Below are positions 19,676 to 42,136 of a DNA stretch of 42,500 bases, piece by piece (position 1 is the first letter of the stretch; each line of letters starts with the position of its first letter). The notes under the pieces are model-generated. The model worked only from the letters and a program-made list of their open reading frames with translations. It was not told the origin of the DNA and made no database searches. The position numbers and the translations under genes were made by a program. The DNA is from Schizochytrium sp. TIO01 (lineage: Eukaryota; Sar; Bigyra; Thraustochytrida; Thraustochytriidae), in assembly GCA_004764695.1 (NCBI GenBank), contig SMSO01000015.1, forward strand, positions 1 to 42,500, written 5' to 3'.

Positions 19676-19966
<291 letters not shown>

Positions 19967-25462: not shown

Positions 25463-27280
25463 TTGAGTGATGCCTGCAAAGACCCTTTAGAAAGCAACTG
25501 GGCAGGGGCAGCAAATCATCAATGCGGAGAGAGGCCTTGCAGGAATACAAGAGCGGAAAGGGATTGCACCAGGTACGCTAGAAAGATGACGAAGATGCCA
25601 AGGCGATTGGCAGCCAGAGTGATCCTAGGATGCGCAGGATTTTGGGTTCTGAGCAAAGCCGTTTGTTATCTGATATTTCTGGTTCGTACTCATCGCATGC
25701 TTAAGCGATTGCCATCGTTAGGGTCTGATCCGAACCAGGAAGCTCTAATCTTTGGATGGCCGGCCAGCAAAGAATTCTTGCAGGGCAGTTCGACCATGCG
25801 TGTGTCTCTAGACAGCTTTCGGAGAAATCTACTTGGTGGGTTGCGACGTAGGCTTGAGCGAGACCCAGAACTTCGAGCAAAGGGCGTGTTGAATGTATGG
25901 ATGCTTAATTCGCGCATTGCTACAAAGATACCTAATATGCTTAATTTGGTAGTGGTCCATGGTCCACAAGAAGTCCGTGAACTTCTCTCTGCAAAGAATC
26001 TTGACAAGTGTGTTAAAGGCCAAGCATACGAAGCCAGCGCTCCACTAATTGGTCGCAGCATTCTTGCTACGTCGGGCCAGGAGTGGCACGAACAGAGACT
26101 AATTTTAGAGCACGGATTTAAGGATGAGCTTCTTCGTAATGCACTCGAGGCTGCCACTGAATCGGTGCAACAATTTGTAAATAAACTCTCCCAGGTTGCT
26201 GCCCGAAAAGAAACATTCGAAGCCTCAGAGGAAACTCTCAAGCTTACCATGGATGTACTAGGTAAATTCGCATTTTCCTATGACTTCAACTCTGTTGCAG
26301 CACCAACTACAAACGATGCGCCTCTGTACAACTGCTTCCAGACGATTCTGAGTACACTGAACTACCGTGCAACAATGCCCCCTTTGCAACTTCTTAGTAG
26401 GCTTCCGCTACAAATGAACATTGACTTCGACGAAGCAATGCGCAAGCTCAATCATCATGTGCGAGAAATTGTGAAACTGCGTCAGCTTACTAGAATACAA
26501 GAAGATATTGGATTAGTGGAATCTACCTCACCGCGAGATTTGCTCGATGTTATGCTATCTACAGCTGTACCGGGGACCGATCATAGGCTTTCTGAACAAC
26601 AAGTAGTAGATAATATTCAAACAATGCTCTTTGCGGGGCATGATACTACTGCAAATGTACTAACCATGACACTTTACCAGCTTGCCGTCAATGATCAGAC
26701 GTATGTTGCCCGTCTTCGTGAAGAGTTTGAACAAGTTCTAGGGACCACAAACCCATCTGCAAACCCAGAGTTCGATGATTTGCAAAAACTTACATTCATG
26801 GATGCTGTGCTCATTGAAGTCATGCGGCTACATCCACCAGCAGCATTTACACGCCGTCCCTTGGAAGATATCAATATTGGGGGCTATGAAATTCCCAAGG
26901 GTGTCGAAGTGGTTGTATTTCCTAACCTTACTCAACGTGATCCGGCCATGTATGATCGCGCTAACGAATTTGTTCCAGAAAGATGGATTTCTCGTCTCGA
27001 AAAGGATAACTTGCCACTCAAAACTGAAGTTGCTGTGCTCGGTCGGCACTTTGCATTCTTACCTTTCAGTCTTGGTGCGCGAAATTGCATCGGGCGAAGC
27101 TTAGCAGCCAATCTTGAGCTCAAGCTTGCCCTTGTCAAGCTATTACAGAGTTTCAATTTCGAACACCAGCCTGGTCCAGACTTTCAAGAAGACCCTATAA
27201 TATGGCTTACCCTCAACCCATGTCCAATCCACCTTCTCCCTATTCCGAGAAATTACACTGCGCCAGAGGTGTCCAAATAA
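25463..27280 (+). CDS. Cytochrome P450 monooxygenase, membrane-anchored
   Basis: Single exon of up to 605 residues. It has all P450 landmarks: I-helix oxygen-binding AGHDTT (~391), K-helix E-x-x-R in EVMRLHPP (~452), the PERW segment, and the heme loop FSLGARNCIGRS with the thiolate Cys near 542. An N-terminal membrane helix lies at ~48-75 (VILGCAGFWVLSKAV), followed by a basic and proline turn, as in ER-anchored microsomal P450s. The region before it is hydrophilic and Cys-rich, so Met42 (25586) or Met45 is a more likely start; P450s of this class are usually ~500-560 residues. The sequence style is closest to the CYP4/CYP97 side of the family, but the substrate (fatty acid, sterol, carotenoid or xenobiotic) cannot be told. 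It stands alone, convergent with the next gene. Confidence 0.9.
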   Translation: MSDACKDPLESNWAGAANHQCGERPCRNTRAERDCTRYARKMTKMPRRLAARVILGCAGFWVLSKAVCYLIFLVRTHRMLKRLPSLGSDPNQEALIFGWPASKEFLQGSSTMRVSLDSFRRNLLGGLRRRLERDPELRAKGVLNVWMLNSRIATKIPNMLNLVVVHGPQEVRELLSAKNLDKCVKGQAYEASAPLIGRSILATSGQEWHEQRLILEHGFKDELLRNALEAATESVQQFVNKLSQVAARKETFEASEETLKLTMDVLGKFAFSYDFNSVAAPTTNDAPLYNCFQTILSTLNYRATMPPLQLLSRLPLQMNIDFDEAMRKLNHHVREIVKLRQLTRIQEDIGLVESTSPRDLLDVMLSTAVPGTDHRLSEQQVVDNIQTMLFAGHDTTANVLTMTLYQLAVNDQTYVARLREEFEQVLGTTNPSANPEFDDLQKLTFMDAVLIEVMRLHPPAAFTRRPLEDINIGGYEIPKGVEVVVFPNLTQRDPAMYDRANEFVPERWISRLEKDNLPLKTEVAVLGRHFAFLPFSLGARNCIGRSLAANLELKLALVKLLQSFNFEHQPGPDFQEDPIIWLTLNPCPIHLLPIPRNYTAPEVSK

Positions 27281-28131: not shown

Positions 28132-30470
28132 TCAAAGTTCTCCACCCTTCCTCTGAGATGAATCATTACTGCTATTGCTATTCTGAAGTCGACGGAGGGC
28201 AGTTAGACGCGCAGATCTACGACGCAGAGCAGCTTCAGCAAAGCGAGAAGAAGTACTGGCGCCAGCTACTGTATCAGTAGCAGATCGAGGTCTATCAGTT
28301 TCAGATTGAGCGCGGGGGAAATTCGGCTGCCTTCTTTTATTTCCAACGCGTCTAACTATAGGCGTCACACGCGTTAAAGTGGTGCGGTTACGAGTTCCTG
28401 CAGAAAAGAGGGATTCAGCTGGTTGTAAATCTTGAGCGCCATCGAGCAAAGACAGTGGTTGCGAAAAGCTGAAATTAGGTCCCACGAGATCTTCTGTGAG
28501 CAGTGGAGTAATCCTTTCTAAGAGGCTGTCCCGAATGCTCTCAGAAACACTTGATTCCCAGTAGTTGCGCAAGCGATTTGCACGAAGCTTCTGCCAAGCA
28601 GCCTTGACCATTTCACGTTCTCCCTGAATGGTATCGAACATACCAAGCATATTATCTCGACGTGTAGAGTGCCGACCGCCGCACATTCCCGTGTGCATAT
28701 GAATAGGACTATCTGGAATTGCGAGACACCAGGCACAAAACTCACAACCGCACACACATGTAATGGCAGGACACCCAGAAAATTCATCGAAAACAAGTCC
28801 GCATCGAGGACAAAATATGCAAAGCATACGATTCTCGATGTAATGGACATGTTCATCCAGAGTGGAGGGTTGTTGATCTTCCAAAGTAATGTTGCGGCGA
28901 TCTTGTTGATATCTGCGATAGTGGTTGTTTGTTCTGTCACGTTCGTTCATATGCATAGGACGTCTTCTGCGCGCTTCTATGCCAAGATGCATGGCAAGTC
29001 CATCCCCATGGTCGTATCTACCGTCACCAAGTCCCGCCAGAAATCCTGTATGAGGTATTATATGCTGACGTAATTGTTCGGCTAATCTGAGGGTAGTCGC
29101 ATGGGATCTTTGAACCTCATCAAAAGTTTGTCTTTGCAAGGCATGCGAGCGCTGCTCTGCATCGTCAACGGCAAGAGATACAGTCAGATCTATGAAAGTC
29201 AACAGATTCTCACGAGGCAACACCATGACAATTCTATTCTTTGGTAGTCTCTCCTGACACATTTCTCCCAAACAGCGCATGCTGCCATGGAAGTCAAACT
29301 CAACATGTGTACCAGGCTGGTTTGCAACACGTAAAGCATGTCCAACGCAGTCCCCGCATGTGCGATGGCCTCGACAACACGTCAGAGAGCAAGAGTCATC
29401 TGATTGTGTAAGACAGATTACGCACGTACGCGTACGTCCCGACGTTTCTCCTGGTTTCGATGCGAGGGCGCACGTTTGTCCTCGCAGCATTTGTCTTATT
29501 TGTAATAGTTTGATGCGTTCCCCAACAACATCTTCGCTGTTGTTCCTGTAACTATTCAACTGAATAATTGATTCTAAACGTTGTTGTAAATCCTGATTGA
29601 CACGATCAAGATCTAGTCTATGACTCGCTCGCAATTCTTGCACAAGTTAGTTTGAGATTCGAATGTTGGATAGGCTAAGCGCTCAACTTACATGACAGTT
29701 CTCAGTGAGATCCCATGTTCCTCAATACTGTCAATCAGCTCTCGGGCTGCGCTTTCAGAGTACTTGTTTCCATTCAGTCTTTTTGAAGCAGATCATTAAT
29801 TACATTTAATATATCCTGGTTAGCTGCAGCTGTTCATATGAGTTTTACGAAGACAATAGAAGGAACGTACTGGAGTTCTGTTAGAAACATCAGTTGCGGA
29901 ATAACAGATCTTATAGATTGCAGACCAGCATCACCAATCATGTTGTTATTAAGGCTATACTCATCCGATCATTATTTGTTGTTAGTTTTTGTAAATGTAG
30001 TAGTCAGTTGGTAGGTACAATAGACTTACTTGATTACCTCAAAGAAAGCCTCTGCGTTCGAACGCAGGGCATTGCAGAGGCTTGCTGCGCCAGCATCAGT
30101 GATGCGATTACCTGACAAGCTAATTAAGACAACAAAGTGTATAATGAGATGTGAGTCAACGCCTCGTAAGAAGATCATTTGCCTTCGTAACAAGTTATTC
30201 ATTGGCAGAAACTTACTTTATGAACTTGATCGCACGACTTGATGTAATCGCAGGAATGATTTTATGAATATCCTCATCCGTGATATCTAAGTTTTGCAAC
30301 CTGCACAGTTAGCTCGAAACAGTCACTAAGTTAGTCATATGTAGTGCACAAATTAGCTTTCAACCTGTTTAAGGCCTAGTTCGCAATAACGCTGGGCCCT
30401 GAACGTACTGGAGCTCGTTGTAACCGTGCTGAAGGCCGTCTATGGCTTGTTGAATACGGGCTTGTGACAT
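28132..30470 (-). CDS. LRR protein with RING1-linker-RING2 (RBR-like ubiquitin ligase)
   Basis: Six exons: 30470-30409, 30300-30217, 30119-30030, 29954-29871, 29778-29692 and 29623-28132. All five introns (68-108 bases) are phase 2, and the total is 1899 bases, exactly 633 codons (632 residues). The short exons of 84, 90, 84 and 87 bases each encode one ribonuclease-inhibitor-type LRR (for example LSGNRITDAGAASL). The long exon encodes a helical stretch and then RING1 (~202, CVIC ... CCRGHRTCGDC ... MRCLGEMC). After a Cys-poor helical linker comes RING2 (~405-436, CPRC ... FSGC ... CEFCAWC), whose Cys in S-G-C sits where RBR ligases have the catalytic thiol. No IBR domain is visible. A WQKLRANRLRNYW ... 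PLLTEDLVG module and a basic Ser-rich tail follow. Function inferred: sensor-coupled ubiquitin ligase. The acceptor at 29623 is chosen by frame and is the weakest join. Confidence 0.78.
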
Positions 30471-31412: not shown

Positions 31413-31564
31413 CCTGCATATAGTTGTGTGTTGCACCTATCCAAGCTTGGATGGGATATTACTATTAAGATAAGCTTTTCAGAAGAGGGGGTACATAAGG
31501 GTCTTGACGCATTATCACCGCAGGTAAAAGAACTCGCCTAGCACTGAGCAACATACATGTCTTG
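31413..31564. repeat. 152-base tandem duplication, copy 1
   Basis: Begins CCTGCATATAGTTGTG and ends ACATACATGTCTTG, directly abutting copy 2. One base differs (TACTATTAAG here, TACTAATAAG in copy 2). It contains the palindrome CCAAGCTTGG at 31441-31450. No coding content. Confidence 0.95.
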
Positions 31565-31716
31565 CCTGCATATAGTTGTGTGTTGCACCTATCCAAGCTT
31601 GGATGGGATATTACTAATAAGATAAGCTTTTCAGAAGAGGGGGTACATAAGGGTCTTGACGCATTATCACCGCAGGTAAAAGAACTCGCCTAGCACTGAG
31701 CAACATACATGTCTTG
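31565..31716. repeat. 152-base tandem duplication, copy 2
   Basis: Same length as copy 1 with a single mismatch, so the duplication is recent. A shorter echo of the CCAAGCTTGG core occurs at 32031-32040, outside the duplication. Confidence 0.95.
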
Positions 31717-33402: not shown

Positions 33403-34793
33403 ATGGTCCGCGTAAATTCGCTTGGAGAGGCCCTCGAGGTTATTCATAACAAAAGTGCTGAAGAGGCAGTGTACGTTTTCCCTTTTTTCTTGTAATTTGG
33501 ATTTTCGGATAGGGAAAGCTTCCTCTAAAATTATGGTAACAGTCTTCAATTTGTGGAACTTGACGTCGAGGAAATGCAAGAACTTGCATCGCTTCTTGAA
33601 AAGGAAAAATTATTGAAAAGCCTATGGTACGTTCTCTTTCTCGCACGTAGATGTCTCATCTAAGCAAACCAAAGCGGGTTCATTGATTTGTATCATCGAG
33701 AATAAGCTAACTTTAAATTTATTGGAATATCACATCATAGCCTCTCCCATATCAGTATGGGTCCAGAAGGTGGGCGTGTGCTTGCAAATGCCCTAAAAGC
33801 GAACGCCTCCCTGGAAACACTAAACCGAGTTCCCTTTTGAGGTGTCTCACTACTGTGCGACAGTTAACCAAGTGTTAATCAACGTGTATTGATATGGTCT
33901 TTTTTAGATTATGGAGCAACGATCTCAGCCTGCGCGGCTTATGCGCAGTTGCTGACGTCTTGCGAGTGAATATTTCATTGAAACCCCTGAGGTAAGCAGA
34001 AGGCGATCGTATATTCAAAGATTCGCATTCCTCAAATTGGCTACTCACTTGCCCTATGAAATATATGCGCTTACTCTACCACTTTCAGCATTGCAGATGA
34101 CCCTGTCTGTGCTGAAAGTGCAGTCGCACTTGCAAATGCATTGCGTGATAATACAACGCTGCAGTCTTTCGCGTAAGTTCAACTCCAGCGTGAAATGTGC
34201 AATAGCCCTTTACTTACTTTTCAAAACAGTGTTTGGAGCAACGAGCTTGGGGCCGAATCAGCAATCAAGATTGCTGAAGTCATTCAGTTCAACTCAGTCC
34301 TAATAGATTTAAAGTAAGTACTTGATGCCCCCTTGTTATTCTACGGATCACTAACAGTAGCCCATGGATGGTCTTTGATGTGTTCATCATGCAGCCTTTC
34401 CCGAGATGAGCCTGGGCCCAGGGACGCAGAAGTTATTGCAGGAGCTTTTAAATTAGATAGATCTCTGCTCAGCCTTGAGTAAGTTTTACCGTGAAGGGAT
34501 TTTGGGTTTTCCACCTGACTAACCCAAGACTAATCTCTATATGTCGCTCTTTATTTACTAGTATATCATGCAACAATATCGGCAACGAAGACACCAATGA
34601 GCTTGCAAAAGCCTTGGCAGAAAACGCCTCGTTGAAGTCTTTACAAGGCGCATAGATGACACTATTAAATTTTTGGCATGGGAAAATGCGCAAACTATTT
34701 GCTAACCTATTTATCGTACAATGGGATTACTTCGAGCGGCGGATGTGCTCTTGCACAGGCATTGCGGATCAATACAGGATCAGAAATCTTGGT
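33403..34793 (+). pseudogene. Decaying LRR-exon gene (no effector domain)
   Basis: A start exon (33403-33470, MVRVNSLGEALEVI) is followed by LRR exons of exactly 84 bases: 33543-33626, 33741-33824, 33908-33991, 34089-34172, 34230-34313, 34395-34478, 34562-34645, and a remnant at 34710-34793. Joined in phase 2 they read as 28-residue LRRs (for example LWSNDLSLRGLCAVADVL). Three splice sites are broken. The exon ending at 33824 is followed by CCGAGT where GTGAGT is expected, and reading on hits a stop. The exon ending at 34645 has AGGCGC instead of a GT donor and runs into TAG at 34653-34655. The remnant has CCTA instead of an AG acceptor. No RING or kinase part follows. A short working gene ending at 34655 would still need a different donor at 33824. 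Confidence 0.68.
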
Positions 34794-35718: not shown

Positions 35719-38700
35719 TTATTCCAATCTAAAATCTGCGCCAACAATATCTGGTGTTAGCAAAGGTGACAATAAGTCTTTCAGAACGAGTCGAAGATTT
35801 CTATCCTGAATTTGTGCATTCCAGTACTCACGCAGACGTTCTGCGCGGAGCAACTGCCACGCCTCACGAACCTGCTCAAATGAATCAGGGTAAAATATAT
35901 CCTGCCCAAGTCTTCTTGAACAGGTTCTCACATGATCATGACAAACATTTGCATCGTGAGAACTGTAGCCAAGACACCAAGCGCAGAAGTGATGACCGCA
36001 AGCACGATTAATACACTCTACAGCACAGCACCCCTTAAAATCGTTCACATAAGCGTTACAATTCGGACAACATGTGCTCAAGATCTTCTCTTGAATATGA
36101 AGTAAATGATGCTCTGCGTCACTCTTCTGTTCACCTGCACGTAGAGCTCGTGCTATGCGCCTTCGGATCTCTTTCTCCGCCCAAACTGCTGCTTCCATTT
36201 CTGCCTTCATCTTCGCAATCAACAAAAGATGATTCAAAGCAGTTGGTGCAAGACGGGTGATTTCTTGACCTGCTATTCTTCCACCACATTCAGGTTTCAT
36301 GCACGCCATCGTTCCATCAGCATCCACTCTTACGTCAGCAAGTGGTTGCGCCGCCGCTTTCACTGTAGCCTCGATACAGTCTCTGCAAAGGAAGTCTCCC
36401 TCCTCGCAGCTCGTGCCCTCGGAAAGCAGATGCTCCTCCAAACATACAAGACATTCCTTGAGAGGGATTTTAGGAGGTCCAAAAGTTTCATGTTGGAGCG
36501 CTTGACGAGCGGTTGGACGTTGACTAGGGTCTGTTGCTGTAAGATCATCGATAAGTTTCTGCATTGTAGCGGTTCGCTCAGTAGGATACAGCTCCTTTAA
36601 GCTTATGCCTACAGAGTACATGTCCATCGCTGTTTCAAACCTATCTACAGGCCCATTCTGCAACTCGGGGGCAACGTACCGTGGCGTTGCCTGAAGTGAT
36701 GTGTAAGTTGCAGTGTAGTCTGCAACCTTGATGCCGTCAAAGTCGCCGATCAATGGTGTCCCGTTGCTTGTGAGAAAAATGTTTTCTGGTTTGATGTCAC
36801 AATGCACGATCCCGTGGGTATGTAAATCCGCAACACCGATAAGCAGGCCCATAGCAAGTCGGTCGCGCGCTGCTTTGCCTTCGTTAGGATGACTCTCAAT
36901 CCACTTGGCAAGGTCACCTTGCTCGTAGAAAGGCATGACAATACAACCACGCGGTTCTCCATTAGAGGTATCCACAAAAGCGCCAGTGATACGTATCACG
37001 TGCTGAGACACTACGTTTCCCATATTTGCAGCTTGCCTGTAAAATATTTTGTGTTGGCTCGAATGGCCGAGTTGAAATTGTTTCAAAACCATAGTTTTAC
37101 CAACGTTGTCAAGAACCCTTTGTACTCTCTTGCCACCTCTGGAAGCAAGGGGCTCGCCAACAGGCTTGAAGTCCGCGACTGTGACATTCGTCAACCAAAG
37201 GTCAGAACATGCTACTTCAAAAACACCCTCTGCACTTACGTGAAGCCTTTCCAGCCAGGCTCTATCTTGCAGCAACTCTGGGTAATGTTCCTGCGCATGT
37301 TGCAGAGTCTCAGCAAGCTTATGACGAAAAGCTTTGCTAAGCTCCATAGGGTTGCCTTGAGAGAGAATGAGCTCTTGTTTCGTGATTCGATTTCTATAGT
37401 GCTCTCGTTCTTCCTCGTCCAGGTCCTCAGCGTCGACATCTTCTCTAGCTCTTTTTAATCTTTCTGTGGCTTTCCTCGACTTGTCAAGTTTCTGGTATAA
37501 TGCTTCCACATCTGAGATATCCGGTCCTTTCAAACCTAGTGCTGCATAGTCATACAGCTCAGAGAGCTCTTCTGGTGTGTACTTGTTCGCGTCATTCAAC
37601 ACTGTGCTTTCAGAGTATCCTTCAAATCGAGCGAATGTTGAACTTATCGCGCAAAATATTTTGGACAAGTGGGAACGAACTGTATCTCCTTGTAGAGCTT
37701 CGATCTCTTCCTTGAGAGCACTCTCAAGTTCAGACAACTCGGGTCCTAGCTCCATGGCCTGCTCAGGTGATCTCAGAGCAACCGATAATCCATCACCAAG
37801 TTCTAGCTCAGACAATCGAGAGATGACGCGTTTTACAGCTTGTTGGCTTCGTTCACCAATGTTGTTGGGACAACCTTCTCCACTCCTCTTGTACCCTTCC
37901 ACGCATTGGACAGCCTGAACAACGAGTTCTTGGCAGTGTTTGAAGTCATCTGTGCTGGTTTCTTCATCGACTGGTACAAGGTTGATCTTTAGATCGTTTA
38001 CCAAACTTTCGACTCTCACTTTGAATTCTCGCACTGCACTCTCATCACTTTCGCAAAGGTTGGCGCGAACCCATGGGTACACAACCTGCAAAAGTGAATA
38101 CAGGTGCCTCCGTTCGGTGTTCCGCTTTTCGATGAGGCTGGCCAAGCCATTTGCGGAGCTTGCACGAATCTGGCCTTGTACCACGTCAAGACTCTCTTTG
38201 GAGTTCTTGATGTCAGCGAAAACCTGTCGCAACTTCACTTGGCCAAAGTAGCCCTGAATCGCCGGTCGAACGAATTCCTCAAGCAGGGCAATCCCAGTCT
38301 GCAGGGAGTTTCCTCTGACCCCCCCTCGGTCCGCGCGCAAGTCCGAGACTTTCTTCCCAAGCTGCACCACATCAGCGAAACTCACGCTCGCTCCATCCGG
38401 CCGTTCTCTGAGGCGAACAAGAAGACGTAAGCAAACGAGCAAAATGATGTTGAGGCAGCAACAAAAGCAGAAGCAAAAGTTAGGATACCCTCTATCTCAA
38501 TAACACAATCCTCGGAATGAATAATTACACGATCCCAAACAAAGACTGACCGCATGAACTTACCCAGATCCATCCAAAGTAGCAGGCTCGGCGCCATCAA
38601 TGCCGTCTTGCTCGTTCTTGGGCTCTGCAGAAGGCTCGCTTTCTGCCGACTCAATGAAGTCGGTGTCTGACGAGAAATCTGCAATGTCCTCTCCAGGAGA

Positions 38701-41700
38701 ACACACCCTTTCGAACAATTGTTTAGGGGTTCCAGAAGAATTGTCATAGCTGCATTTGATAAATCAATGAACGAAAGAAAGACAGTAAAAGCGCTTGTTA
38801 GAAAAACGATGCACGCAACTAAAGACGGCCTCGGAAGTCCATATGGAGACATGGAGAGAACCAGCGAAGGCAAGGCTTTGCGCAAGCTGGGAACAGCAGC
38901 AGAGGGAACGGAACTTACAAGATAAAAACAGAAGGACATGCTTTGTGCAGTGCCTTTGCGACGGCCTTTGCGCCCTCCGAGCCAATGTTGTTGCTACGAA
39001 GACTGTGAGTATAAATGAATAAGTTTGTTTTGTTCATTCGTTGTCAGGAAAGACAGGTCCAGTCAGTTGATCCTGTTTTGTTTTCTTTTTCCTCACAATA
39101 AAAAGCAATCACCTCTTCTTCTTCTGCTGCTGCTGCTGCCTATCAAATTATATAGATTTCCTTCTTCTCTTTGTAAAAAAGAAAAGACTTCTTTGCCTTT
39201 CTAAAGTACCCAACTACGTAAACTACGTTGGTAGTGTACCAGCAGTACTACAGACACCAAGCACTAAAAAGAAAGAAAGAAAAAGCTTGGTCCTGACTAT
39301 TACGATAGCTTTCCCTCGTGGATGATTCCACAAACGTACTGTAAAGTTTGAAGGTTCTTGCATCCCTCGAGTGCCTTTGCGACGGCCTTTGCGCCCTCTG
39401 AGCCAATGTTGTTCTTCCAAAGACTGTGAGTATAAATGAATAAGTTTGTTTTGTTCATTCGTTGTCAGGAAAGACAGGTCCAGTCAGTTGATCCTGTTTG
39501 TTTTGTTTTTCCTCACAATAAAAAGCAATCACCTCTTCTTCTTCTGCTGCTGCTGCCTATCGAATTATATAGATTTCCTTCTTCTCTTTGAAAAAAAGAA
39601 AAGACTTCTTTGCCTTTCTTTGCGTACCCAACTACGTAAACTACTTAGGTAGTGTACCAGCAGTACTACAAACACCAAGCACTAAAAAGAAAGAAAGAAA
39701 AAGCTTGGTCCTGACTATTACGATAGCTTTCCCTCGTGGATGATTCCACAAACGTACTGTAAAGTTTGAAGGTTCTTGCATCCCTCGAGTGCCTTTGCGA
39801 CGGCCTTTGCGCCCTCCGAGCCAATGTTGTTGTCACCAAGACTGTGAGTATAAATGAATAAGTTTGTTTTGTTCATTCGTTGTCAGGAAAGACAGGTCCA
39901 GTCAGTTGATCCTGTTTTGTTTCGATTTTCCTCACAATAAAAAGCAATCATCTCTTCTTCTGCTCCTGCTGCCTATCAAATTATATAGATTTCCTTCTTC
40001 TCTTTGTAAAAAAGAAAAGACTTCTTTGCCTTTCTTTGCGTACCCAACTACATAAACTACTTAGGTAGTGTACTACAAACACCAAGCACTAAAAAGAAAG
40101 AAAGAAAAAGCTTGGTCCTGACTATTACGATAGCTTTCCCTCGTGGATGATTCCATAAACGTACTCTAAAGTTTGAAGGTTCTTGCATCCCTCGAGTGCC
40201 TTTGCGACGGCCTTTGCTCCCTCATCGCCAATCTTGTTCCAATCAAGACTGTGAGTATAAATGATTAAGTTTGTTTTGTTCATTCGTTGTCAGGAAAGAC
40301 AGGTCCAGTCAGTTGATCCTGTTTTGTTTCGATTTTCCTCACAATAAAAAGCAATCATCTCTTCTTCTGCTGCTGCTGCTGCCTATCAAATTATATAGAT
40401 TTCCTTCTTCTCTTTGTAAAAAAGAAAAGACTTCTTTGCCTTCCTTTGCGTACCCAACTACATAAACTACTTAGGTAGTGTACTACAAACACCAAGCACT
40501 AAAAAGAAAGAAAGAAAAAGCTTGGTCCTGACTATTACGATAGCTTTCCCTCGTGGATGATTCCACAAACGTACGACAAAGTTTGAAGGTTCTTGCATCC
40601 CTCGAGTGCCTTTGCGACGGCCTTTGCGCCCTCATCGCCAATGTTGTTCCTTTCAAGACTGTGAGTATAAATAAATAAGGTTTTTCATTTGTTGTCAGGA
40701 AAGACAGCTCTGGTCAGTTGATCCTGTTTTGTTTTGTTTTTCCTTACAATAAAAAGCAATCAGCTTTTGTTCTGCTACTGCTGTTGCCTATGAAATTATA
40801 TAGATTTCCTTCCTCTCTTTGTAAAAAAGAAAAGACTTCTTTGCCTTTCTTTGCGTACCCAACTACGTAAACTACTTAGGTAGTGTGCCAGCAGTACTAC
40901 AAACACAAGCACTAAGAAGAAAGAAAGAAAAAGCTTGGTCCTGACTATTACGATAGCTTTCCCTCGTGGATGATTCCACAAACGTACTTTAAAGTTTGAA
41001 GGTTCTTGCATCCCTCGAGTGCCTTTGCGACGGCCTTTGCGCCCTCATCGCCAATGTTGTTCCTTTCAAGACTGTGAGTATAAATAAATAAGGTTTTTCA
41101 TTTGTTGTCAGGAAAGACAGCTCTGGTCAGTTGATCCTGTTTTGTTTTGTTTTTCCTTACAATAAAAAGCAATCAGCTTTTGTTCTGCTACTGCTGTTGC
41201 CTATGAAATTATATAGATTTCCTTCCTCTCTTTGTAAAAAAGAAAAGACTTCTTTGCCTTTCTTTGCGTACCCAACTACGTAAACTACTTAGGTAGTGTA
41301 CCAGCAGTACTACAAACACCAAGCACTCAAAACAAAGAAAGAAAAAGCTTGGACCTGACTATTACGATAGCTTTCCCTCGTGGATGATTCCACAAACGTA
41401 CTCTAAAATTTGAAGGTTCTTGCATCCCTCGAGTGCCTTTGCGACGGCCTTTGCGCCCTCTGAGCCAATGTTGTTTTGAGAAAGACTGTGAGTATAAATG
41501 AATAAGTTTGTTTTGTTCATTCGTTGTCAGGAAAGACAGGTCCAGTCAGTTGATCCTGTTTTGTTTTGTTTTTCCTCACAATAAAAAGCAATCACCTCTT
41601 CTTCTTCTGCTGCTGCTGCTGCGTATCAAATTATATAGATTTCCTTCTTCTCTTTGTAAAAAAGAAAAGACTTCTTTGCCTTTCTTTGCGTACCCAACTA

Positions 41701-42136
41701 CGTAAACTACTTAGGTAGTGTACCAGCAGTACTACAAACACCAAGCACTAAAAAGAAAGAAAGAAAAAGCTTGGTCCTGACTATTACGATAGCTTTCCCT
41801 CGTGGATGATTCCACAAACGTACCCAAGACGAGTCAGGTTCTTGCATCCCTCGAGTGCCTTTGCGACGGCCTTTGCGCCCTCACGACCAATTCTTTTCCC
41901 ACCAAGACTGTGTTTGTTTGTTTGTTTGTGAACAAGTGAGAGTAAGTATATGCCATTTCCAACTTCTTCATTAGTGCCACTACTAGTTCAATTCTATTCT
42001 TCTTCTACAAAGCTGACTACTACAACACATCGACGACACGATGCCTCCTCTTCTGTCTCCTCCCTTCTGCATCGTGCACCTACCAAATCTCCGTCGTATC
42101 TTCTGTGATGTCCTCAATTCTCTCTGCTTTGGTCAT
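35719..42136 (-). CDS. LRR-kinase-RING1-RING2 protein (receptor-like ubiquitin ligase)
   Basis: Eleven exons: 42136-42084, then eight LRR exons of 84 bases (41907-41824, 41485-41402, 41071-40988, 40658-40575, 40248-40165, 39841-39758, 39423-39340, 39002-38919), then 38749-38564 and 38407-35719. All introns are GT-AG and phase 2. The sum is 3600 bases, 1199 residues plus stop. Order: short N-terminus (MTKAERIEDI), eight 28-residue LRRs, acidic linker, long helical region (~305-705), and protein kinase (~709-942). Kinase motifs are VLK, HCDIKPENIFL, GDFDG in place of DFG, and APEL. RING1 follows (~955, CLVC ... SCEEGDFLCRDC, Asp in place of the usual His), then a helical linker without IBR, RING2 (~1082-1116, CPNC ... 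FKGCC ... CGHHFCAWC) and the WQLLRAERLREYW ... PLLTPDIVG tail shared with the gene at 28132. No signal peptide or membrane helix, so it is probably cytosolic. Sensing by the LRRs with kinase and ubiquitin output is inference. Confidence 0.85.
38919..41907 (-). repeat. Tandem LRR exon + intron array, 8 exons, ~407-422-base period
   Basis: Successive exon starts lie 421, 418, 407, 410, 413, 414 and 422 bases apart. Each unit is an 84-base exon plus an intron of 323-338 bases. Introns share donor GTACGT, a (CTG/CAG)n patch, a GAAAGAAAG patch near the donor and acceptor ACTCACAG. By eye the introns are nearly identical. Units with introns 40659-40987 and 41072-41401 share private variants (TTTTTCATTTG, AGCTCTGGTC) and are the youngest pair. 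The rightmost intron (41908-42083) and the last exon's 3' half are unrelated to the unit and mark its edges. Confidence 0.93.

Follow-up and report, generated by a model that had tools for sequence, protein, structure and literature searches.

The closest described parallels to the gene considered here are the LRR-ROCO exon arrays of brown algae and the HIC-WD40 receptors of Podospora, and it belongs to neither group. The gene lies on the minus strand of a 42,500-nt stretch of the Schizochytrium sp. TIO01 genome (bases 1-42500 of contig SMSO01000015.1, referred to as C14; this whole stretch is called the window) and combines an array of leucine-rich repeat (LRR) exons with a predicted protein kinase domain and a putative RING-like module. 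The brown-algal LRR-ROCO genes carry tandem arrays of phase-2 exons of 72 nt, each encoding one 23-residue LRR, and four positively selected sites on the concave face (14, 16, 18 and 19) are located inside one exon, according to the available passages of PMC11378527. The Podospora NWD/HNWD genes encode near-identical WD40 repeats of high internal conservation (HIC) which undergo concerted evolution within and between genes, change in number and have in each repeat four hypervariable codons on which diversifying selection acts (available parts of PMC12222747 and PMC4986451). Human ribonuclease inhibitor (RI)-type LRR genes, for example those of NLRs, are built from LRR-sized, frame-preserving exons with 81-87 bp as a major length peak (passages of PMC6642158).

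Like the LRR-ROCO genes, the window gene is found in a stramenopile and consists of tandem phase-2 exons of one LRR each, and the sites 14, 16, 18 and 19 are, in our own reading of the passages of PMC11378527, spaced as the variable positions x3, x5, x7 and x8 are here. It differs from those genes, as far as these passages describe them, in having 84-nt exons with an intron between x5 and x7, whereas the sites are unsplit in the 72-nt algal exons, and in having a kinase and RING-like effector instead of a ROC-COR GTPase. ROC and COR are absent from the Pfam listings, which give kinase families for exon 10 and, for the N-terminal part, LRR families, and the text of PMC11378527 uses neither 'concerted' nor 'gene conversion'. 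Concerted evolution together with a few hypervariable codons is found both in the window family and, in the available parts of their description, in the Podospora HIC NLR genes (NWD), which differ in combining WD40 with NACHT where LRR and kinase are combined here. NACHT, WD40 and NB-ARC are absent from the Pfam listings of the window gene. To our knowledge the Podospora WD40 repeats are not split by introns. The resemblance to the human genes lies in RI-type LRRs and in frame-preserving exons, which are a precondition for exon skipping, whereas the available passages of PMC6642158 say nothing of hypervariable contacts within an exon-intron pool that is shared and homogenised. By its predicted domains the family falls outside the ROCO, NWD and NLR groups, and it combines features of known systems with a different effector and with an intron inside the contact strand. 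No paper on LRR arrays or immune receptors in thraustochytrids, labyrinthulomycetes or Aurantiochytrium was found in the literature searched, which mostly excluded subscription journals.

Hypervariable contact codons in a homogenised exon pool

The window gene is a complete 11-exon model with a single open frame of 1199 residues, in which a start exon is followed by eight one-LRR exons of 84 nt apiece, a linker exon and a kinase and RING-like exon (Table 1). All exon junctions are in phase 2, and the seven introns of the array start with GT and finish with AG. A first-pass annotation, made from the sequence alone, had described the array at 38919-41907; its eight exons and seven introns stand, but the last exon, which it took to be partial, is complete at 84 nt and diverged in its 3' third, and the start, linker and kinase/RING-like exons were missing from it. 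The residues that it read before the strand leucine and in the pair that follows agree with the model translation (Table 1, tail x5 and contact pair). Tandem Repeats Finder reports 7.1 copies of 413 bp for the array (93% matches, score 4862). The repeats are of the 28-residue LxxLxLxxN form which defines the RI type, and Pfam assigns the N-terminal part of the gene to LRR_6 (E 9.9e-50). Relatives in the PDB include leucine-rich repeat protein 4r5d, 5irl (which we take to be NOD2) and the RNase inhibitors 4per and 1dfj. In repeats of the LxxLxLxxN form the concave face bears the x residues that neighbour the strand leucines, and the variable residues described below would be expected there from this motif and from general knowledge of the fold. 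The intron is positioned between x5 and x7, and each spliced strand joins an exon's tail to the head of the exon that follows.

Nine arrays of the family comprise 72 LRR exons, which measure 84 nt in 65 cases, 96 or 99 nt in six and 83 nt in one, six of the seven deviating lengths being multiples of three; the first exon of the array at 2.89 Mb of contig C32 measures 84 or 96 nt depending on the acceptor. Exon tests were carried out on 47 of these exons from eight arrays, after first and last exons, exons of other lengths and the older array at 7.345 Mb of C13 had been dropped. Loci L013 and L018 were excluded as copies of L012, and the older loci L020-L028 were inspected and kept out of the tests. 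Across contigs the scaffold and the introns are near-identical, and the contact codons are highly diverse and unlinked to the neighbouring introns. The pooled contact positions x3, x5, x7 and x8 show a pairwise site difference of 0.584 against 0.041 in the introns, a ratio of 14.3 (12.7-16.4 in a bootstrap over arrays), which is the comparison that the first-pass annotation had proposed as a check on its claim of variable contact codons between near-constant introns and scaffold. The six internal exons of the window alone give the same picture, with 0.50 for contact codons, 0.045 for introns and 0.007 for scaffold. Of the positions themselves, the three flanking the splice junction had already been recognised as variable, and x10, x13 and x2/x3 now join them. 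The differences within and between arrays are 0.64/0.66 at x7, 0.57/0.62 at x8, 0.56/0.60 at x5, 0.49/0.55 at x13, 0.48/0.48 at x3, 0.35/0.31 at x2, 0.30/0.28 at L4, 0.23/0.26 at x10 and 0.017/0.016 in the scaffold, where fourfold sites located between the two variable segments differ by 0.021.

Introns are as similar between arrays as within them. The 59 introns of the eight arrays have a mean pairwise difference of 0.0395 within (212 pairs) and 0.0411 between arrays (1499 pairs), and linkage disequilibrium (LD, r2) inside the introns falls from 0.142 at 0-10 alignment columns to 0.053 at 11-50, 0.031 and then 0.024 beyond 150, with a null level of 0.017. This even divergence, together with the decay of LD over tens of bases, indicates that the units act as a single pool that recombines. 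The closest relative of an intron lies in its own array for 27 of the 59, where 7.3 would be expected at random, which points to local duplication inside the common pool. Among the 335 intron columns only six exceed a difference of 0.3 (maximum 0.52, mean 0.041), the seven window introns differ from one another by 3-25 bases (21 pairs, 317-337 aligned bases), and introns immediately outside the arrays differ more, by about 0.07-0.135 (seven genes). One array intron gave 96 matches in the genome, all at array loci or lone array units, and mobile introns were rejected since the intron family is confined to such places.

The contact codons do not follow the introns that flank them. An intron of C5 is 100% identical (rounded) to window intron 1 over 326 bases, and the flanking codons differ on both sides. 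No significant association links the head codons to the intron next to them (rho 0.060, p 0.11), head differences are independent of adjacent-intron difference (rho 0.001, 1081 pairs), and in the nine pairs with intron p <0.006 the heads still differ by a mean of 4.0 of 6 bases. Tail and head are not associated across the intron either (rho 0.036, p 0.20); 49 of 50 junction strands are distinct and are built from 27 tails and 35 heads, and skipping of internal window exons was computed to yield 18 potential extra strands beyond the native seven.

The choice of residues at the contact positions is not random, and hydrophobic-type codons are avoided there. T occupies the second codon position in 1/47 exons at x7, 1/47 at x8, 3/47 at x5 and 0/47 at x10, against a frequency of 0.27 in the body of the window gene. 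Codons were counted in the 55 of 65 units which passed a strict acceptor/CTT filter, one of them from L016, a one-unit locus outside the nine arrays with stops in its body. The codon at the junction consists of two free bases plus one base from the next exon, which is T in 54 of the 55 units, so that a stop is impossible in the resulting NNT. At x7, Gly is encoded by GGT in 12/12 and Ser by TCT in 11/11 cases, and at x8 Gly is GGT in 0/12 and Ser is AGC in 5/5, while the kinase bodies use GGT, TCT and AGC at 0.25, 0.23 and 0.22. Such position-restricted codon use is expected when amino-acid variants spread by copying and not by blind mutation.

Explanations for the diversity of the contact codons

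It is probable that the LRR domain of this LRR-kinase-RING-like family is a modular, fast-diversifying binding surface under diversifying selection, drawn from a homogenised and shuffled pool of exons. Contact divergence exceeds the mean synonymous divergence (dS) of the kinase bodies, which is 0.236 over 77 pairs of 13 sequences, and relaxed constraint and old neutral ancestry are therefore both insufficient; the earlier description of the pattern as the opposite of neutral drift holds against the introns as well as against this value. The 13 sequences include both of the identical C32 and C35 copies, with their own pair omitted, and exclude the older pair of genes at C30 1.73 Mb and C5 1.79 Mb. 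In the proposed mechanism the units are reshuffled, and their scaffold and introns kept homogeneous, by gene conversion and unequal crossing over both inside a locus and from one locus to another, while diversifying selection for new binding specificities would maintain the variable concave-face residues. A bound ligand would be signalled via the kinase and possibly also via a RING/RBR-type ubiquitin-ligase module, and its likely sources would be pathogens (viruses, bacteria) or non-self cells. Because the intron interrupts the contact strand (x3, x5 / x7, x8), intron exchange or the skipping of an exon joins a new half-strand to an old one, and either event would leave the scaffold untouched. 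Receptor function, splicing and population variation are deduced here from the genomic sequence.

Such a locus would offer an evolutionary route to rapid receptor diversification in a probably unicellular stramenopile, through a homogenised scaffold, hypervariable contacts and intron-mediated exchange, with the diversified LRR array coupled to a kinase/RING-like output, and it makes the family a candidate for a role in the immunity or self-recognition of protists. One unit of ~413 bp, repeated over 72 exons in nine arrays, contains contact sites, scaffold and introns together, and selection, gene conversion and mutation are thus separately measurable. A more far-reaching version, which is offered tentatively and is more doubtful than the above, holds that the recognition exons form a shared pool across the genome, that recombination in introns and exon skipping make combining sites from half-strands, and that some 15 loci provide each cell with an adaptive-like repertoire of LRR paratopes. 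If true, a single-celled protist would possess combinatorial recognition and a repertoire resembling an adaptive one.

Several results weigh against diversifying selection on a shuffled pool, or against parts of the proposed system. Contact-codon diversity is not higher within arrays than between them but slightly lower, which gives no sign of selection for differing adjacent repeats. A one-step test counts 3 synonymous and 18 nonsynonymous changes in the head, where 18% synonymous are expected (p 0.46), and 3 and 10 in the tail (p 0.47), neither of which is decisive; x5 alone deviates (0/16, p 0.02). The recent duplicates at C5 1.79 Mb and C30 1.73 Mb, whose bodies differ at 18 of 2721 positions, have identical heads and tails in 4/4 LRR exons, which implies that codon change there is not very fast; both arrays fall in an older, less homogenised subgroup. 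With regard to the effector, the RING/RBR assignment is weak (Pfam IBR_2 reaches only E 2.7), and outside the source genome only four database proteins match much of the kinase/RING open reading frame (ORF), among the 8000 scored candidates sharing most words.

The same genetic mechanism could serve a receptor for self and non-self, acting in fusion, mating or allorecognition, with another ligand in place of a pathogen. This is a possible but minority reading; the evolutionary signature matches that of het-d/het-e in the available parts of PMC12222747 and PMC4986451, but NACHT and HET-type domains are absent from the Pfam listings of the window gene.

Targeted hypermutation, in which a local mutational mechanism acts at the exon ends and selection merely purges broken variants, is unlikely. 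It would account for contact codons that are unlinked to introns 4 bases off and that differ also where the introns of two units are nearly the same, as well as for in-frame G/T-rich insertions located exactly at the variable head in 3/72 exons (two of 99 nt in the C32 2.89-Mb array, one of 96 nt in C30), and it is compatible with the one-step synonymous test. However, the Gly and Ser codons at x7 and x8 are position-specific and depart from kinase-body usage, the short-range decay of LD inside introns means that recombination alone suffices to unlink the sites, and the duplicate pair retains all its contact codons. Microsatellite-like slippage was rejected as the main source of variation, the variants being codon substitutions in an invariant frame and the G/T-rich insertions exceptional. 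Diversifying selection acting on the homogenised, shuffled pool fits best, with hypermutation the less likely of the two.

Concerted evolution of a neutral kind, in which exposed positions are under relaxed constraint and are homogenised more slowly, is very improbable: exposed residues do tolerate change and the pool clearly recombines, but divergence should then reach the intron level of 0.041 or at most the dS of 0.236, and the contact codons stand at 0.58, residue choice is not random and the scaffold fourfold sites between the variable segments are homogenised at 0.021. Least probable of all is an assembly artefact or a set of dead genes, for although contigs C24, C32 and C35 have arrays at their ends, T runs of differing length shift two exons of the C35 copy (97 and 98 nt) out of frame in the manner of sequencing errors, one exon has 83 nt and 2/17 long kinase/RING matches contain stops, consistent arrays occur at many loci, 65/72 exons have 84 nt with 6 of the other 7 multiples of three, and the remaining 15/17 matches are free of internal stops with a dN/dS of 0.31.

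The kinase/RING-like part and the family across the genome

Exon 10 carries a predicted protein kinase domain with the catalytic Asp (Pfam Pkinase, E 7.6e-30), and its translation contains HCDIKPEN and APE, which we take to be kinase motifs, the catalytic Asp included. The kinase bodies are, as judged from their substitutions, under purifying selection (mean dN/dS 0.31, range 0.23-0.46 over the 77 pairs). The C-terminus has two conserved cysteine clusters of RING1-like and RING2-like spacing and is possibly a RING/RBR-like module. A profile with full-length proteins retrieved kinases and was rerun on the zinc module alone, for which the best PDB match is Ariadne-1 (E 0.013, RING2-like part) and parkin scores lower (E 0.31); one Cys aligns in the former match with the GGC Cys of Ariadne-1, presumably the catalytic one. 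No cysteine-rich middle domain was seen between the two clusters. Named homologues of the kinase/RING ORF among the 8000 candidates scored were partial kinase matches only, and no relatives in viral contigs were confirmed. Neither a signal peptide nor a transmembrane helix was seen in the 1199-residue model by eye, no predictor being used, and the products are probably cytosolic. A separate 503-aa ORF of the window (28132-29643, minus strand) has a cysteine pattern like the RING1/RING2-like end of the kinase genes with 31% identity, lacks a kinase match and gives no Pfam hit.

In the genome searched (64.06 Mb, 37 contigs) the one-unit query found 169 matches and the kinase/RING ORF 51, of which 17 on 11 contigs are long (at least 861 of 907 residues, at least 77% identity); 15 of the 17 have no internal stop and two do. 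The end of C32 overlaps the start of C24 with 99.94% identity over 9.5 kb and the two are probably one locus assembled twice, which leaves at most 16 kinase/RING loci. Of 21 loci examined, 14 (the window among them) carry a window-type start exon upstream of their array, and the pattern was not found at L018 (cut by a contig end), L021, L022, L023, L026, L027 and L028. Beginning at the last LRR exon, two copies show no difference through 3.6 kb, and they are one LRR unit apart, a possible recent unequal crossover which weakly supports the earlier suggestion that copy number changes easily; an assembly error is possible for one of them, as the shorter copy ends at a contig end and shows homopolymer differences.

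Some loci depart from the standard arrangement. Unit 5 of L011 (C33 1.95 Mb) is a mid-array exon with the acceptor flank of a first exon, aaacaaacacag, as after fusion of two arrays. At L024 (C13 ~19 kb) an LRR exon continues in frame into a Gly-Ala-Ala repeat and unrelated residues, followed by a GTACG donor. L021 (C6 1.114 Mb) and L023 (C13 6.656 Mb) consist of one and two LRR units, respectively, together with introns of the array family, and have no kinase/RING match nearby, which suggests relics or an exon reservoir. For the 19 kinase-body loci listed, the distance to a contig end is at most 130 kb in 11 cases (for C14 only the start was considered), a subtelomeric bias that is no more than suggested since the arrays themselves may break contigs; telomere-like repeats (TTAGGG or TTTAGGG, at least 2 consecutive) were not found in four stretches near contig ends.

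Table 1. Exons and repeat array of the LRR-kinase-RING-like gene in the window
Feature	Position	Strand	Remarks
Exon 0, start exon: MTKAERIEDITEDTTEI + first two bases of x5 codon	42084..42136	-	ATG, donor GTAGGTGC
LRR exon 1, contact pair GG, tail x5 = G	41824..41907	-	84 nt
LRR exon 2, contact pair SQ, tail x5 = D	41402..41485	-	
LRR exon 3, contact pair ER, tail x5 = N	40988..41071	-	
LRR exon 4, contact pair ER, tail x5 = S	40575..40658	-	
LRR exon 5, contact pair DW, tail x5 = D	40165..40248	-	
LRR exon 6, contact pair GD, tail x5 = H	39758..39841	-	
LRR exon 7, contact pair WK, tail x5 = H	39340..39423	-	
LRR exon 8 (last), contact pair RS, tail x5 = F, diverged 3' third	38919..39002	-	last exons compared over seven arrays
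Stretch with seven near-identical introns (323-338 bp each) and exons 2-7	39003..41823	-	
Exon 9, acidic linker	38564..38749	-	
Exon 10: N-terminal region without Pfam match, predicted protein kinase domain, putative C-terminal RING1/RING2-like module, stop	35719..38407	-	2689 nt

Elsewhere in the window, a short ORF on the plus strand (34491-34655) has a diverged RI-type LRR motif, NNIGNEDTNELAKALAENASLKSL, and may belong to an older LRR gene of several exons on the opposite strand. A cytochrome P450 ORF occupies 25463-27280, its top named match being from Hondaea fermentalgiana (71% identity), a single-protein indication of a thraustochytrid source. A 152-bp unit is duplicated head to tail at 31413-31716 with 99% identity, and a GATT microsatellite of 72.8 copies (98%) is located at 19676-19966.

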